DNA from: a virus | IMG/VR virus record: IMGVR_UViG_3300042560_000787 | Location: 1 to 22,642 of that record | Strand: one strand, 5' to 3' | DNA: 22,642 nucleotides | Shown here: piece by piece, positions 343 through 12,119 of the stretch | How the letters are laid out: each line of letters opens with the position of its first letter | Numbering within the stretch: the first letter of the stretch is position 1 | Notes under the pieces: model-generated | What the model saw: only the letters and a program-made list of their open reading frames with translations | Database searches by the model: none | Told to the model about the DNA's origin: nothing | Position numbers and translations under genes: made by a program

Positions 343-370
343 AAAAGCACGGACAGTCTCCCGTCCGCGC
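343..370 (-). terminator. Hairpin with U-tract after the metallopeptidase gene
   Basis: On the minus strand GCGCGGAC pairs with GTCCGTGC (8 bp including one G-U wobble) around the loop GGGAGACT, followed by TTTTCTC. It sits between the stop of the peptidase gene (393) and the ATG of the 51-residue gene (325). It could be a weak intrinsic terminator, or an RNase III processing site of the kind found between T7 early genes. Confidence 0.5.
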
Positions 371-392
371 TGATGATAGTTTGAATTGTTGC

Positions 393-1310
393 TTACCTTA
401 TGTAGAACACTTCACTGAGGAATTGTTCTTCGTCATACCCAAGACGATCTAGGATATCCGCAGCAATGTCAGGGTATTGCTTGACCAATGACGCAAGATC
501 ACCGTACTGGCACTTGATGTAGTCATCGCTGTATAGATCATACGTCTTGCGCCAGTTGTAACCATAGTCTACGTCATCTTCCCCAGCTTTGCGGGAGACA
601 ACCAGCTTAGTTGTGTCAAGGTCACACAGCTCTTGGAACAGGCTGTCCAAGAACCACATATCAAGGCACTCATTAGGACCATGCGCCCCCTCGTAACCCA
701 CCGACAAGTTAGTGCACTCAGCAATCAAGTCAGTGTAGTTTGCGGTATCGGTGAAGATACCATTAGGGCTGGCGGTGAAGCCGGTCAGTTGTTCAGCAAG
801 TGAAGCAGCGAAGGCATCGCTACAGCATCGCACCCCTTGATGGGTGATGATGTCACCCGTGCCTTTGCGATCCAGTGCGATTGCTATATCGATACCCTGA
901 AGATACTCGGGGTTTTCCTTAGCGATAGCCCTAGACCCAATGCCCCCGACTTCTTCCCCACGATGGAAGATGTAAAGCCCTGGGATTCCAAAGGTAATCA
1001 TCTGGTGCATAAGCCAGACACCAGCTGTGTCGTCTGCACCAAGGCAGTTAGACTTACTACCAGGGGCTAGCGCAACAAGACCATCAACAGCAGTGATGAG
1101 TTGCTTGCCTTCCTCACGATGCACAGTGTCAGTGTGGCAAGACCACATGACATTTGAGGAGCCTATGCTGATGATGAGGTTTCCCTCCTCGTCTACATAG
1201 GGATCAAGCGGCATGAGGAAGCGATTGATAAACTTCTCCTCGGTGCGCGATGCGTGAGGACGGCGATAGCGCAGCATGTCGAGAAGCAAGGCATGGTCAG
1301 GAGTACGCAT
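393..1310 (-). CDS. M20/M28-like zinc metallopeptidase, phage-encoded
   Basis: This 305-residue protein has the full order of metal-ligand motifs of co-catalytic zinc peptidases (M20/M28/M42 clan). They are SCHTDTVH (H59, D61), LGADDTAG (bridging D93), RGEEVGG (general base E119, ligand E120), IALDRKG (D147) and EGAHGPNE (H210). In the families the HxD and the bridging Asp bind two zinc ions and the first Glu activates water for aminopeptidase, carboxypeptidase or deacylase chemistry. No signal peptide is seen, so it should act in the host cytoplasm. The ATG overlaps the end of the zinc-ribbon gene by 14 bases and has GGAGG six bases upstream inside that gene, so the two are translationally coupled. 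The C-terminal 70 residues (after about 235) are acidic and Tyr/Asp-rich and do not match the core. The substrate is unknown. The assignment to the clan is strong, to a family weak. Confidence 0.85.
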   Translation of the reverse strand: MRTPDHALLLDMLRYRRPHASRTEEKFINRFLMPLDPYVDEEGNLIISIGSSNVMWSCHTDTVHREEGKQLITAVDGLVALAPGSKSNCLGADDTAGVWLMHQMITFGIPGLYIFHRGEEVGGIGSRAIAKENPEYLQGIDIAIALDRKGTGDIITHQGVRCCSDAFAASLAEQLTGFTASPNGIFTDTANYTDLIAECTNLSVGYEGAHGPNECLDMWFLDSLFQELCDLDTTKLVVSRKAGEDDVDYGYNWRKTYDLYSDDYIKCQYGDLASLVKQYPDIAADILDRLGYDEEQFLSEVFYIR

Positions 1311-2640
1311 GATCGGCCTCCACAGTTACAACTTCCTCTTCACCGGCTTCCTCAGCAGCCTTCTCCGCTGCTTTCTCCTCAGCCTCATCCGTTGTTAGAT
1401 AGACACCATCGTCTTCGTCATAGACGAAATCATGCGAGCAAGACTCACAGACTGTGGTGCCAGAAGTGGTGGTACCCACAATCTCAGACTCGTACCAGTA
1501 GTACTCACCGCACTCATCGCAGAAGTACACTCGACCACGATCAACGCAGCTTTCGCAGACTACGTAACCATCGTGGGTGTGGACATGGCTAGTGCTGTCG
1601 CTGTACGCATCTCCGCAGCAATCGCAAGTGAACGCACCACTAGCGTAGCAGCTATGGCAAATCTCTTCTTCAGAGTCATAAAGCCAATAACCGTCACCCT
1701 CATCGAAGTGTTCACCACACCACGGGCAGCAGTGACCCTTATCAGCATAGCCGCCCGTGTTCTGGACCTGTAGATGACCAGACCCAAGGACAAGCCAGTC
1801 CTTACCGTTGCATCGTTCAATAGACGCTTCTTCGATCCAGTCAATATACGGGCAGACGTAATGACCACGATGCTCAATGGCTTGGAGATGTGCGCCTTCG
1901 AAGCCACCTTCATGATATCCCATACCTTCTAGGTGCTTGAGCAAACGCACGGCATCCCCGTAGATGCGCCCATAGATAGACTCGTCTTCCCAGATGAGTG
2001 CCCGTGCTGTTACATCGCCTTCTTCATCCACAAGAACAGCGAGGGAGAGATCGGAGTCGCCATAGATAGCCACAGGGTGGACAGGGCTATCGTAGCTGCG
2101 TGCCTCCTTAGACATGCAAGACGATGGGCCGTTGATGTAAGCGTGGATGATATCCTCGGATGACCGAAGGATCTTGAAGGAACTGGCGTTATCAAACTCA
2201 GCGCAGAAAGACGCAATGGTAGCGTCACTGATGAGATCACCATAGAATTTCTTCAAGTAGCGCCCAGGCGAGACAACAATTTGCCTATCCGCTGCGCCGT
2301 ATTCTTCATCCGGGGTATACGCGACCTTGTTCTTGTTGCCTTGTGCAATGTGAACAAAGTGATCCTTGTATTCACGCACAAATCGGCTGGCTGTAGTGTA
2401 GTTGCTAGGCTGAGTGAACAGATCAAGACTGGCCCAGGGCACAGGCTCATAGTTCCCATTGTCAAAGCGCCCTTGCTCACGCTCACGCCAGTCAATAATA
2501 GGCTTCTCCTTACGCTTTTGGATACGCGAGAAAGACGCAGCTTGCTTGTTGATGAAGCGCACAATAGCAGCAGCATCTTCCGAGACTTCAAAAGAGGCGA
2601 AGCGACAAGCCACTTCCCCATTGGTGACAACATCAAACAT
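1297..2640 (-). CDS. Early protein with three tandem zinc ribbons
   Basis: This 447-residue protein has six CxxC knuckles: C305/C308, C328/C331, C339/C342, C362/C365, C374/C377 and C398/C401. They fall naturally into three consecutive zinc ribbons, followed by an acidic, Glu/Ala-rich tail (about 404-447). The N-terminal 290 residues form a separate domain with a basic stretch near residues 39-55 and a conserved-looking GPSSCMS segment (171-177). I do not recognise the N-terminal domain. Zinc ribbons of this spacing usually bind nucleic acid or protein partners, so a role in host takeover is inference. The start has a strong GAGGAG 8 bases upstream. The 3' end overlaps the metallopeptidase gene by 14 bases, which points to coupled expression. 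Confidence 0.75.
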   Translation of the reverse strand: MFDVVTNGEVACRFASFEVSEDAAAIVRFINKQAASFSRIQKRKEKPIIDWREREQGRFDNGNYEPVPWASLDLFTQPSNYTTASRFVREYKDHFVHIAQGNKNKVAYTPDEEYGAADRQIVVSPGRYLKKFYGDLISDATIASFCAEFDNASSFKILRSSEDIIHAYINGPSSCMSKEARSYDSPVHPVAIYGDSDLSLAVLVDEEGDVTARALIWEDESIYGRIYGDAVRLLKHLEGMGYHEGGFEGAHLQAIEHRGHYVCPYIDWIEEASIERCNGKDWLVLGSGHLQVQNTGGYADKGHCCPWCGEHFDEGDGYWLYDSEEEICHSCYASGAFTCDCCGDAYSDSTSHVHTHDGYVVCESCVDRGRVYFCDECGEYYWYESEIVGTTTSGTTVCESCSHDFVYDEDDGVYLTTDEAEEKAAEKAAEEAGEEEVVTVEADHAYS

Positions 2641-3968: not shown

Positions 3969-4025
3969 GATGTTTCTCCTTGGCGCTTAATCGATGCGCC
4001 GATTGTGTAGACCATCCACACATGA

Positions 4026-4055
4026 AAGCGCCTTAAGGTGTCCCCTAAGGCGCTT
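4026..4055 (-). promoter_or_regulatory. Perfect 10-bp hairpin in the early leader
   Basis: AAGCGCCTTA and TAAGGCGCTT are perfectly complementary around the 10-base loop AGGTGTCCCC, about 58 bases before the ATG of the 173-residue gene. Only three Ts follow on the minus strand, so a processing site (like the T7 R0.3 site) fits better than a terminator. The arms contain the CCTTAAGG/CCTAAGG core also seen in the 5647-5705 repeat cluster. Confidence 0.5.
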
Positions 4056-4542
4056 GATATCTATGGATGTTGGATTCCGTTAAGTGATACACGGTTTTCT
4101 TGTACCCTAGCTATTTTCCTCTATCCCCTTGGTTCACCCTGCATCCCCCGTATTTCGTGGCACATGCTCTCGCATCACCAGTCACCAAAGGATTTTTCGC
4201 TGCTTCTATGTATGCCGTGTATGCCGTTACCAGCCTGAAGCCTCGCGCAAGCTACCATCATGTGATGTTATGCCGTCAGCGTTTCACCCTGATTAATGGA
4301 CATAGGCTTGCGCCACTAAGACCACCATTTGAGGACTACTTTACCAACCACAGGTACACCCAAGGATATTCGAGTATATTTGCTAGGTCGTTTTCACACT
4401 GTTACCAGTGCAAGGGTTTACGTACCCTTCCAGCGTCATGTGATTGACTGGGTGCGGCGGGATTCCCCTCTACCGCTTGACCTACCCTAATCCCCTAGCC
4501 TCTACCCTTCCCCTTCGGTACTAAGGCGCTTTGCTAGGCTTT

Positions 4543-4583
4543 CCTGCCCATTTGCTGGGCGGGTAGTAGTCCGACACTCGGAC
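4543..4583. repeat. Two adjacent hairpins in the leader
   Basis: CCTGCCCA/TGGGCGGG (8 bp with one wobble, loop TTTGC) spans 4543-4563. GTCCGA/TCGGAC (6 bp, loop CAC) follows directly at 4569-4583. Neither has a U-tract on either strand. They are structural elements of unknown role in the leader or terminal region. Confidence 0.45.
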
Positions 4584-4705
4584 CATCAATCACATGCTAG
4601 ATTGTACCGCTACACCTACAGGCTTCCGGCATCACCGGGGCGAACCTTAGGGGCGTCATATTGTGTTGCTCTCGCTCTCTATTCACCTATCCCTTCCTTT
4701 GAGGC

Positions 4706-4729
4706 TGGGGGACGGACCTCCCGCCCCCA
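4706..4729. repeat. Strong GC hairpin
   Basis: TGGGGG-A-CGG pairs with CCG-CCCCCA around the loop ACCTC, giving nine base pairs with one bulged A. No U-run follows on either strand, so it is not a standard terminator. It is the most stable short hairpin in the leader region. Confidence 0.45.
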
Positions 4730-4875
4730 AGGCTGTATATGGATGAACTGCCATCAATCAGCAATCCAAAGGTAAGGATTACGGTATGGGAAGGGTAACG
4801 AAAAAAATGCAGCCTATGACTTCAGGGTAGGTTTTAAGGGGCATTTCCCTACCCCAAGGTGTGGTTAGGTCAATC

Positions 4876-5193
4876 ATGCTGATATTCATTTGGTTGTATA
4901 AGTCAAAAATGACCATACAACCCAACACCTTGGAAACCATAGGTAACCTATTGATTTCTCAGGGTATATTAGATGATTTTCTAGCTTATGAAAAAAGATG
5001 TGATGATGATTATGATAGTGTTTTCAATGGTTTAGGTGGGTTTGTGGCTTGTGCCATATGGTGGCATGACCGTGCCACTATATGGATGCTAGTGGTTCCC
5101 CTCGGGATGCCCTGGGATAGCCTCGGGATGCCTTCAGGATTGCTTAGGGGCTATGACCAAAAAAGATGGCAGAACACAAACAGAGGGAAGTGA
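4876..5193 (+). CDS. Lone plus-strand ORF, about 105 aa, doubtful
   Basis: This is the only protein-like ORF on the plus strand. It can start at a GTG (4861), at ATG 4876 (weak AGG 6 bases upstream) or at ATG 4909 (no ribosome binding site). The N-terminal half (LETIGNLLISQGILDDFLAYEKRC split by a helix-like pattern, then DDDYDSVF and a GGFVACAIWW hydrophobic patch) looks protein-like. The C-terminal third is built from a repeated LGMP unit encoded by the 21-base tandem repeat. It overlaps the AT-rich island where early minus-strand promoters would be expected. It may be a moron gene or a chance ORF in promoter DNA. I favour chance slightly. Confidence 0.3.
   Translation: MLIFIWLYKSKMTIQPNTLETIGNLLISQGILDDFLAYEKRCDDDYDSVFNGLGGFVACAIWWHDRATIWMLVVPLGMPWDSLGMPSGLLRGYDQKRWQNTNRGK
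4879..4906 (-). promoter_or_regulatory. Candidate sigma70 early promoter
   Basis: On the minus strand TTGACT (5 of 6 to the -35 consensus) lies 16 bases before TATCAG (4 of 6 to the -10 consensus), in the AT-rich island upstream of the early genes. A second, weaker pair (TTTTCA, 17 bases, TAATAT) lies at 4966-4994. Clustered host promoters at the left end are known in T7. Here the match is modest and the assignment leans on position. Confidence 0.35.
4966..4994 (-). promoter_or_regulatory. Weaker candidate early promoter
   Basis: TTTTCA and TAATAT are separated by 17 bases on the minus strand, each matching the sigma70 hexamer at four of six positions. It lies about 90 bases upstream of the 4879-4906 candidate, within the same AT-rich island. 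It could be one of a promoter series, or just AT-rich sequence. Confidence 0.25.
5100..5141. repeat. Two-copy 21-base tandem repeat
   Basis: CCTCGGGATGCC occurs at 5100-5111 and again at 5121-5132, the starts 21 bases apart, with partly similar tails (CTGGGATAG and TTCAGGATT). It keeps frame within the doubtful plus-strand ORF, giving two LGMP units. Confidence 0.6.
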
Positions 5194-5200
5194 TAGTGAC

Positions 5201-5312
5201 CGTCCCCCGGCAATCCCCAGGTTCCCCCCTCGGTCTACCTCATGTTTCCCCAAGGGATATGATATTCAATCATGGGCAAGCTATTGATATCCTTGGGTTT
5301 TCTTGGGGGACG
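5201..5312. repeat. Nested long-range inverted repeat
   Basis: The outer arms CGTCCCCC (5201-5208) and GGGGGACG (5305-5312) enclose inner arms CCCAAGG...ATAT...CAAT (5249-5270) and ATTGATATCCTTGGG (5283-5297). The left inner arm is interrupted by a G and by a GATATT insertion. The whole could extrude as a cruciform or fold as a long RNA stem. Its position in the probable terminal region suggests a role in processing concatemers, but that is inference. Confidence 0.45.
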
Positions 5313-5428
5313 TGACAGATGATGTGACAAATCCAGGGGATCGTTGGGGATAAAGCTAGTGATCTAGTAGGCTAGTCGAAAGGTGGGCTAAGGGGGAAAC
5401 TGCTCTCCGCCCTCTGCGCTATACCTCT

Positions 5429-5554
5429 TCAGATTTTTCCTACAAAATATTCAGGGTATGACCAGTAGAAGTATGAACTCAAGGACCCCGTCAGACACGC
5501 ATGGTATCCCCTAAGGACCCCTATGGTTTCCCATGCCATAACTGACCGAGCCAT
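5429..5554 (-). CDS. Putative 41-aa protein in the terminal region
   Basis: A short minus-strand ORF begins MARSVMAWETIGVLRGYHA and ends YPEYFVGKI. It is preceded by AGGAGAGG five bases before the ATG, the best ribosome binding site in this gene-poor region. The product is aromatic-rich (five Tyr, two Phe, two Trp) with no clear membrane helix. It lies just beyond the repeat cluster at 5647-5705, so it could fall within the terminal redundancy, as do very small genes in some phages. The function is unknown and reality uncertain. Confidence 0.4.
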   Translation of the reverse strand: MARSVMAWETIGVLRGYHACLTGSLSSYFYWSYPEYFVGKI

Positions 5555-5646
5555 GTATCCCTCTCCTGAGGAACCCATATAGATACCCTACGTTCCCATA
5601 CGGTAACCACACAGTTAACCTTAATATACATACTACACATTTAAAA

Positions 5647-5705
5647 ACCTAAGGTACCTTAGGTGTCTTTAAGTATCTCTAAGACACCTAAGGTTACCTT
5701 AAGGT
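5647..5705. repeat. Palindromic short-repeat cluster, SRR-like genome-end marker
   Basis: Four units alternate in orientation: ACCTAAGGT (5647), ACCTTAGGT (5656), ACCTAAGGT (5686) and ACCTTAAGGT (5696). Units 1 and 2 form a perfect 18-base palindrome (5647-5664). Bases 5656-5669 and 5681-5694 form a perfect 14-bp inverted repeat around an 11-base spacer. Directly repeated CCTAAAG heptamers lie just inside each T7 terminal repeat and are thought to act in concatemer processing and packaging. The core and location here, right after the last late gene, make the same role likely. The inverted rather than direct arrangement differs from T7. Confidence 0.65.
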
Positions 5706-5733
5706 TTTAGTTTAGTTGATTACGTTGGAGATG

Positions 5734-10155: not shown

Positions 10156-12119
10156 TCCGCGTAGATGGCCGGGGCTGCAACGCGCTGGGCCTTTGTGTTC
10201 AGGGTCTTGATGCGCATCGTCAGGCTGGTACCGCTCGGCTGAGACGACACACTGGCCCTCCCCTGGATGGCCGAATATGTACCGTCATACGACGCGATAG
10301 TGGTGATGGTCGCCGTTGACCACGTAGTGCCGCCGTCACGGGACAATTCGACGGTCAGATCGGTACCAAGCACCGCCGACCCGCTGTCGTCCTTCCACAG
10401 GCAGTATGCGTCCATGTAGGACGGGGCTGCGGATACTGTCGTGGATGCCGGGGGGATGAGCGTCATGTTCGCAGGAGACAGGCTCTCGAAGAACTGCAAC
10501 TCGGCGCAATAGACACTGGCAGAGCCGTCAACGCTGTCGATGCACAGCCAGTGATAGCGGTAGGCTGTGGTCGTGGTGATTCCAGAGGTTACGGTCACCG
10601 TATAGCCGTTGGAATCCGCGATGGTGCCGCTGTCATGCAGCAAGGTGCCGTTGGTCGGGCTGGATGGCGCCGTATTGCTGCCGTACAGACGAAGACGCCC
10701 TTGGCTGCTGTTGGTGATGCCCTGGTCCGTCGATGCCCAGTATGAGAATTTGGTGATGGTGTAGCTGTTGCCGAGGCCCCAGTCTTTACCCACATAACCC
10801 TGGGTCGCCGACTTGGCCGCAGACGCGCCAGCGCCCTGGGATGTGGTGCCGTCGAATGCAGCCGCCGTACCGCCATTGATTGTCATGTCACCGATGATGG
10901 TTCCCGTACCCTGCGCAATCTGGGAGAAACTTCCGGGATTGCCGTAATAATTGGGCGATCCCGCTGTATACGTCTCGTTTGTGGAAGTCGCACCCCACTC
11001 ATCGGACGAAAGCTCCCATTGGTACCCGCCAGCGAGAGCACCTGTCGTCACTGCAGAGTTGAGCATCAGCCTCAGGTTCGTAAGGGCTATCTGGCTGCGT
11101 GCCGTCAAATCGGTAGCAGAGAGGCCGGTAAGCAGAGACCCGTCAACGGCGGGCAGTTGAGCCGACCCGTTGAGTTGGACGATCTTGTTGGCGGCGGTGC
11201 CCACATCAACAGCAATAGTCCCGCTGGTGGTGATCGTGCCGCCCGTCAGGCCGGTGCCTGCGGTGATGCTGGTGACGGTGCCGTTACCTGTTCCTGCACC
11301 AAGATTGGCACGTGCGGTAGCAGCATTAGTCAGATCACTAAGATTATTAGTGCTGATCAAATCACCAGCACCAATATTAGTACCTACCCAAGCACTCCCA
11401 CTCCACTGGGGAACCTTGCCAGTACCCGTAGCAGCACCATTGGGCAAACTTGCAGCACTTGCAGCAGCAGCATTCTCAGACACCAACGCAGCAGCCGCAG
11501 AGGCAGCCGCAGCAACCTTATAGCCATCCACAGTGTTCTTATCGGCAGCCACAGCCGCACGATCAGCAGCCGTAGCGACAGCATCAGCAGCGGTCAGGAT
11601 GGCCTTAGCAGTCGCTGTGTTCGCCGCAGAAGTTGCGGAGATGTCACTGAGGTTCGCCGCAGATGCTGAGGAAGCCGCTGCGTTCTTATAGGTGAGCGCG
11701 TTGGACTCAGAGGTAGCCGCAGCAGACTCAGAGGCAGCGGCAGCAGCTTCAGAGAGAGCCGCAGCAGTCTCGGAGGCTAGGGCAGCCGCAGCGGAAGCCT
11801 GGGCAGACCCAAGACTATCGATGCCCTCCTGAAGGGCGAACAGGAACTGGTCATTCTGCTGGTTAGCTTCAGCAGCCAAGAAGGCAGACCCATCTACGAA
11901 GGTGGTAACCTTATCTTCGATAGGGGTGGTACGGTAAACTACGACATCCCCAGTGGGTGCAGGGGAGATGTTAATAACCGAGGTAGAAGTAAAAGTGAAG
12001 GAGGTCGAAACCCCCTCCACAGTAACAGCGATATCAGACTCGTCAATATACCCGAAAGGGATGGAATACGAAGTGGTCGTGCCAGTCTGATTCGGATAGG
12101 TAACGCTTGCGTATGCCAT
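10152..12119 (-). CDS. Tail fibre with T7-type N-terminus and swapped distal domain
   Basis: This 655-residue receptor-binding protein has several parts. Residues 1-105 (MAYASVTYPNQTGTTTSYSI, YIDESDIAVTVEG, EANQQNDQFLFALQEG) are the T7 gp17-type domain that docks on the tail. Residues 105-225 are an Ala/Ser repeat predicted to form a trimeric coiled coil. Residues 235-340 contain the fibre motif SDLTNAATARANLG and GTVTSITAGTGLTGG. Residues about 415-547 resemble a discoidin (F5/8 type C) sugar-binding fold: AFDGTTSQGA, DWGLGNSYTITKFSYWAS, GRLRLYGSN, YRYHWLCID and YCAELQFFE. A short beta-rich tail follows. Base composition becomes GC-rich distal to about 11345, at the conserved fibre motif. 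It is slightly longer than T7 gp17 (553). Confidence 0.93.
   Translation of the reverse strand: MAYASVTYPNQTGTTTSYSIPFGYIDESDIAVTVEGVSTSFTFTSTSVINISPAPTGDVVVYRTTPIEDKVTTFVDGSAFLAAEANQQNDQFLFALQEGIDSLGSAQASAAAALASETAAALSEAAAAASESAAATSESNALTYKNAAASSASAANLSDISATSAANTATAKAILTAADAVATAADRAAVAADKNTVDGYKVAAAASAAAALVSENAAAASAASLPNGAATGTGKVPQWSGSAWVGTNIGAGDLISTNNLSDLTNAATARANLGAGTGNGTVTSITAGTGLTGGTITTSGTIAVDVGTAANKIVQLNGSAQLPAVDGSLLTGLSATDLTARSQIALTNLRLMLNSAVTTGALAGGYQWELSSDEWGATSTNETYTAGSPNYYGNPGSFSQIAQGTGTIIGDMTINGGTAAAFDGTTSQGAGASAAKSATQGYVGKDWGLGNSYTITKFSYWASTDQGITNSSQGRLRLYGSNTAPSSPTNGTLLHDSGTIADSNGYTVTVTSGITTTTAYRYHWLCIDSVDGSASVYCAELQFFESLSPANMTLIPPASTTVSAAPSYMDAYCLWKDDSGSAVLGTDLTVELSRDGGTTWSTATITTIASYDGTYSAIQGRASVSSQPSGTSLTMRIKTLNTKAQRVAAPAIYAE

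Follow-up and report, generated by a model that had tools for sequence, protein, structure and literature searches.

In the LysW/LysK system, an acidic zinc-ribbon carrier protein bears an amino acid conjugated to its C-terminus, and release is performed by an M20-type hydrolase. In phiKMV-type phages, the GNAT protein Rac leads to cleavage of the alpha subunit of host RNA polymerase (PMC7552054), which offers, by analogy only, a functional precedent for a phage GNAT that brings about proteolysis of a host protein. The closest described loci are found in Autographiviridae, where gp10-gp11 of KP34, gp6-gp7 of VP93, gp14-gp15 of Gaspode and genes 6-7 of PPWS1 are homologues of the two genes described here, adjacent or overlapping and in the same order. 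They are annotated as 'hypothetical protein' and 'peptidase' and are located upstream of the primase and helicase genes, in a stretch defined as the early region (PMC6115819). In the literature searched, KP34 and early phage peptidases were covered by comparative genomics or not at all, and no study of the function of the upstream protein was found.

The gene pair in the window

The window, a stretch of 22,642 nucleotides (22.6 kb) from IMG/VR virus record IMGVR_UViG_3300042560_000787, was found to belong to a T7-like podophage whose terminase shares 53-57% identity with its counterparts in Roseobacter and Rhizobium phages. The pair (Table 1) comes after three small genes, which are themselves downstream of a gene-poor stretch. 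This stretch of about 1.7 kb without clear genes (4010-5730) separates the gene block of the pair from the terminase block, contains a terminator-like hairpin at 5647-5664, and may be a genome-end region, perhaps the left end; a search of the window for long direct terminal repeats gave none. Repeats spaced at 21 nt are present in an alanine/serine-rich stretch of the tail fibre gene (11463-11808).

Table 1. Features of the SCM-peptidase pair, in positions of the window
Feature	Position	Strand	Basis
Terminator-like hairpin just past the peptidase stop	346..371	-	11 pairs, 7 GC; pattern match only
Clan MH (M20/M28/M42-like) metallopeptidase, 305 aa	393..1310	-	Profile matches; metal/catalytic residues invariant
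SCM/zinc-ribbon protein gene, 447 aa	1297..2640	-	ORF; homologues adjoin peptidase in 131 loci
Acidic C-terminal tail	1300..1434	-	Last 45 residues: 17 D/E, 2 K/R
Putative ribosome-binding site of peptidase (GGAGG), inside SCM gene	1317..1321	-	6 nt before peptidase ATG
Putative zinc ribbon 3, C374-C377 / C398-C401	1438..1521	-	Variable among relatives
Putative zinc ribbon 2, C339-C342 / C362-C365	1546..1626	-	Variable among relatives
Putative zinc ribbon 1, C305-C308 / C328-C331	1648..1728	-	Ribbon common to most relatives
Conserved core, aa about 50-300	1741..2493	-	AlphaFold2 mean pLDDT 91.7; part weakly GNAT-like
Ser174-Cys175-Met176 (SCM) motif	2113..2121	-	98-100% conserved, about 135 sequences

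The upstream gene starts with an ATG preceded by GAGGAG and encodes a protein with a pI of 4.5 (family median 4.7), here termed the SCM protein. Its stop overlaps the ATG of the peptidase by 14 bases (ATGCGTACTCCTGA). CxxC motifs start at residues 305, 328, 339, 362, 374 and 398 and pair as 305/328, 339/362 and 374/398 into three units of the form C-x2-C-x19-C-x2-C, C-x2-C-x19-C-x2-C and C-x2-C-x20-C-x2-C, respectively, a cysteine spacing that suggests zinc binding. Six CxxC motifs were never reached in 20,000 composition-preserving shuffles (mean 0.77, maximum 5). An earlier note on this DNA had described six CxxC knuckles forming three ribbons, with an acidic tail behind them, in a gene that shares 14 bases with the metallopeptidase gene and contains the peptidase ribosome-binding site; each of these points was borne out.

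The peptidase was matched to the PepT-like tripeptidases 3rza (1.4e-9) and 3gb0 (9.5e-9) and to the M42 peptidase TET1 2cf4 (1.2e-3) in profile searches. It missed the Pfam gathering cut-offs of M42 (16.7 of 23.2 bits) and M28 (17.2 of 21.3 bits) as well as the NCBIfam PepT-like cut-off (19.9 of 274). Residues H59, D61, D93, E119, E120, D147 and H210 were present in all of about 149 aligned peptidases, and the co-catalytic metal site (His, bridging Asp, Glu-Glu, Asp, His) was complete. Because the clan MH metal and catalytic residues are present in every aligned sequence, the window peptidase should be active.

Pairing and co-inheritance of the two genes

A scan of viral contigs with the single SCM protein of the window gave no matches, and neither A1 nor A2 could serve as a scanning alignment because of their divergence; the peptidase alignment was used instead. 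In the forward test, viral contigs were fetched by the peptidase alone and their open frames were searched with an SCM profile. The SCM gene was found on the same strand and directly upstream in 87 of 92 viral contigs; four of the five exceptions were contig ends and one (L036) was genuine, giving 87 of 88 contigs with enough upstream sequence. Counted over peptidase loci, SCM was directly upstream in 95 of 100, with four of the five exceptions being contig ends. Among the bacterial contigs fetched by the peptidase the figure was 34 of 45, and the remainder mostly carried divergent peptidases, apart from a contig end and one reversed order (L127, a Spirochaetaceae MAG contig), where an SCM-like gene follows the peptidase (265-2632). 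In the reverse test, 45 contigs were fetched by the SCM core: the peptidase was adjacent in 40 and 0.8 kb away in one, one was a contig end, and three had none nearby (phage contigs L200, L202 and L204), so that without the contig end the peptidase was downstream in 41 of 44. The forward and reverse sets share some contigs and near-copies occur; 104 pairs were left below 90% peptidase identity.

At the SCM-peptidase junctions (n = 130), the genes overlapped in 47 cases and were separated by 0-30 nt in 67, with start codons picked automatically and a few extreme distances being artefacts. No third gene was constant, the next commonest neighbour family being present in 16 of 131 loci. Solitary divergent peptidases were found in Thermus phage P23-45, Bacillus 2S-4 and several bacterial contigs; since these and the SCM-only contigs exist, neither protein strictly needs the other. 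In the vicinity of the P23-45 peptidase (L101), an ATP-dependent protease is annotated and a VWA protein is also encoded. The SCM genes of L202 (4815-5963) and L204 (3765-4889) are followed by small lysis/cell-wall-like genes, and the C-termini of their products show cysteine-poor repeats.

The pair was found in Autographiviridae isolates (KP34, VP93 and PhiM1 types), Bradyrhizobium phages, and alphaproteobacterial plasmids and chromosomes. Isolates checked one by one and found to carry it were Pasto, BDU-MI-1, KP34, Gaspode, PPWS1, VP93, vB_AbaA_LLY, Ep4, C171, in which the peptidase is annotated as two pieces, and KPPK108.1. It is also present on Sphingopyxis plasmid pMC4. On Methylobacterium plasmid pVL1_2 (L021, 4542-9905), two SCM genes in tandem precede the peptidase gene, whose product is extended at its N-terminus by about 150 residues, and a Bradyrhizobium plasmid carries SCM alone. 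In seven loci (L013, L015, L025, L026, L056, L071 and L088), genes for a MoxR-type AAA ATPase and a DUF2201 VWA/metallopeptidase protein are present 0.6-2.7 kb downstream of the pair. Enterococcus phage H1 (L104, 17-4354) has a divergent peptidase and, 2.5 kb ahead of it, a protein with the SCM motif and ribbons, which matches the SCM profile with 95% probability in the ribbon region and only 4% in the core; a second protein with an SC motif (SCM/SCH-like) is encoded directly upstream of that peptidase. From their motifs, the H1 proteins are possible distant members of the family and are given here as a lead.

The mirror-tree correlation between SCM and peptidase was 0.64, compared to a shuffled maximum of 0.20. 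Pairing was clustered on the peptidase tree, with 6 changes against 13.5 after shuffling, and none of 500 shuffles went as low, on a rough tree in which several solitary peptidases sit on long branches. The SCM tree disagrees with 11 of the 41 supported splits of the peptidase tree, which indicates some re-pairing or noise. These findings show that phages, plasmids and chromosomes alike carry an SCM gene immediately before the gene of a peptidase whose metal site is complete, that the two are largely co-inherited, and that their coupling is real and strong. The earlier note had proposed that the two proteins may act together, with the ribbon protein for example as substrate adaptor or host-binding partner, and had named co-occurrence in related phages as a check. 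Within the main clade, single genes were seldom seen whichever of the two was used for the search, and this coupling, the only constant gene association, accompanied by correlated trees, supports the joint-action part of its interpretation.

The SCM core and its predicted structure

The window SCM protein matched PHROG 13313 (1.1e-10) and PHROG 6980 (7.5e-9), and tblastn found relatives in phages of Klebsiella, Escherichia, Shigella, Bradyrhizobium and others. An alignment of 72 divergent relatives (A5) defined the conserved region at aa about 50-300. This core of roughly 250 residues was named after Ser174-Cys175-Met176. In about 135 sequences, Cys175, Tyr193, Arg213, Pro264, Asp267 and Gly297 were invariant, and Ser174, Met176 and Tyr227 were 98-99% conserved. 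Among the 72 members, 59, 28 and 7 matched PHROGs 6980, 13313 and 23053, respectively, which carry no recorded function, and no Pfam match was recurrent. Searches of the SCM protein against Pfam, NCBIfam and PDB sequences gave nothing or noise, and the PADLOC anti-phage defence profiles gave no families for seven proteins. The order of the SCM motifs looked similar to that of PcfJ, and a weak BFVD row (E 0.083) pointed the same way, but a PcfJ-like identity (PF14284) was rejected, since profile comparison to seven PcfJ sequences with hhalign gave a probability of 0.1%.

A simple count of motifs across 131 pairs gave 30 SCM proteins with no ribbon, 72 with one, 16 with two, 12 with three and one with four, and Corkvirinae relatives have similar repeats in which the cysteines are missing. 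Judged from the alignments and this count, the SCM core is the constant part of the family, the ribbons are a variable add-on and three ribbons are a minority state. The stress that had been laid on three ribbons was thus misplaced. Moreover, what had been called an unknown 290-residue domain does lack a recorded function, but it is the defined conserved region of a family represented in PHROGs 13313 and 6980.

The AlphaFold2 model of the full-length protein (12 sequences) was uncertain, with a pLDDT of 74.5 and variable, low-confidence termini, and that of the core (72 sequences) was confident. The protein consists of a helical N-terminal part, an alpha/beta core, variable ribbon repeats and often an acidic tail. 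No strong PDB structural match was found for the core with Foldseek (E 0.045 or worse), the first row being lysyl-phosphatidylglycerol synthase. The best 50 VIA-align rows were almost all GNAT-type acyltransferases, aligned to model residues 103-199 (window aa 152-248); the top row had a Z of 6.6 and 3.4 Å over 88 residues, and a Z under 8 can reflect a common arrangement. The core had 20 matches at E <= 0.001 among predicted viral proteins, and those with names were nearly all uncharacterised phage proteins. The acetyl-CoA pyrophosphate loop Q/R-x-x-G-x-G/A was absent at the beta4-alpha3 junction, where the A5 consensus is R-x-Y-G-D-x-x-R. Because the structural scores are weak and the CoA loop is absent, the modelled core is described as weakly GNAT-like in arrangement and not as a GNAT.

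Proposed function and comparison with known systems

Since the SCM gene is almost always directly before the peptidase gene, in phages and plasmids, the two proteins probably work together. The preferred reading, with a probability of approximately 0.5, is that they form a translationally coupled early two-gene module in which the SCM protein would select or modify the target of the peptidase, for host takeover or disarming. The two proteins would act in one step or one complex, in which the ribbon repeats would contact a macromolecular target and the SCM core, in a pocket that its invariant residues would line, would recognise or chemically modify a substrate of peptide or amino-group type; the peptidase would then hydrolyse the substrate handled by the core, early after entry, to take over or disarm the newly entered host cell. 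Such a role fits the early-region placement in T7-like phages, the ArdA-like antirestriction gene that adjoins the pair in phage Pasto, and carriage on plasmids. A narrower version is possible and more speculative, namely a two-component enzyme system shared by phages and plasmids: a GNAT-like protein whose Cys is invariant would mark or present its target, either a host protein or a small signal, and a dedicated peptidase would destroy that target, so that the host is shut down or a defence disarmed.

It is rather unlikely that the SCM protein is a GNAT-like acyl- or aminoacyltransferase and that groups of the type it transfers are taken off by the peptidase, as a writer and eraser or in two-step processing. 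The nearly all GNAT-type structural matches, the lysyl-phosphatidylglycerol synthase at the head of the Foldseek rows, the active site suggested by invariant Cys, Tyr, Arg and Asp, and the Rac precedent argue for it, whereas the missing canonical loop and structural scores within the range of common arrangements argue against it. An SCM protein that serves the peptidase as substrate or inhibits it, in a zymogen-like or toxin-antitoxin-like manner, is unlikely. Such an arrangement would explain the tight coupling, upstream order and frequent overlap, and the variable, low-confidence termini could be trimmed, but a conserved core with invariant polar residues exceeds the needs of a substrate, three SCM genes have no peptidase nearby, and PADLOC gave no match. 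An acidic DNA mimic or antirestriction protein with a merely co-transcribed peptidase is quite improbable: the low pI, the annotation of the KPPK108.1 (Klebsiella phage) homologue as 'putative DNA mimic protein' and the ArdA-like neighbour point to it, but DNA mimics have no need of invariant Cys, Tyr, Arg and Asp or of zinc ribbons, and near-exclusive pairing with one peptidase across such divergence would be left unexplained. Finally, a LysW-type carrier, suggested by a zinc ribbon, an acidic tail and an M20-related hydrolase within one operon, is largely refuted, since the conserved C-terminal Glu is absent and the C-termini are variable (AYS, EAA, DAA, SNQ, ENE, TID), no ligase was annotated among ten recurrent neighbour families, and ribbons are missing in 30 of 131 pairs.

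Sequenced phages by the hundred, including many of Klebsiella, have a gene listed as 'hypothetical' beside one listed as 'peptidase', and this gene is half of a conserved pair that spans several phage lineages and plasmids of environmental bacteria. The pair offers defined proteins and specific residues with which the role of early phage peptidases can be probed.

Compared to the window, the Autographiviridae SCM homologues are longer (about 580-710 aa) and have one or degenerate ribbons rather than three. The window peptidase is like the PepT/M20B tripeptidases and M42 TET aminopeptidases in profile match and in its full metal/catalytic set, but has 305 aa and a TDTANY...ECTN...GY..H..E signature of its own. 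The best Foldseek PDB rows for the whole SCM model were LIM-type tandem zinc ribbons (E 0.017), from which SCM differs in the linkers of 7-8 residues between ribbons, in all-Cys ligands and in the loss of ribbons in many relatives. SCM weakly resembles the GNAT acyltransferases in the predicted order of elements over aa 154-246, but it has neither a sequence match nor the CoA loop, and has in addition an N-terminal helical region and C-terminal ribbons.
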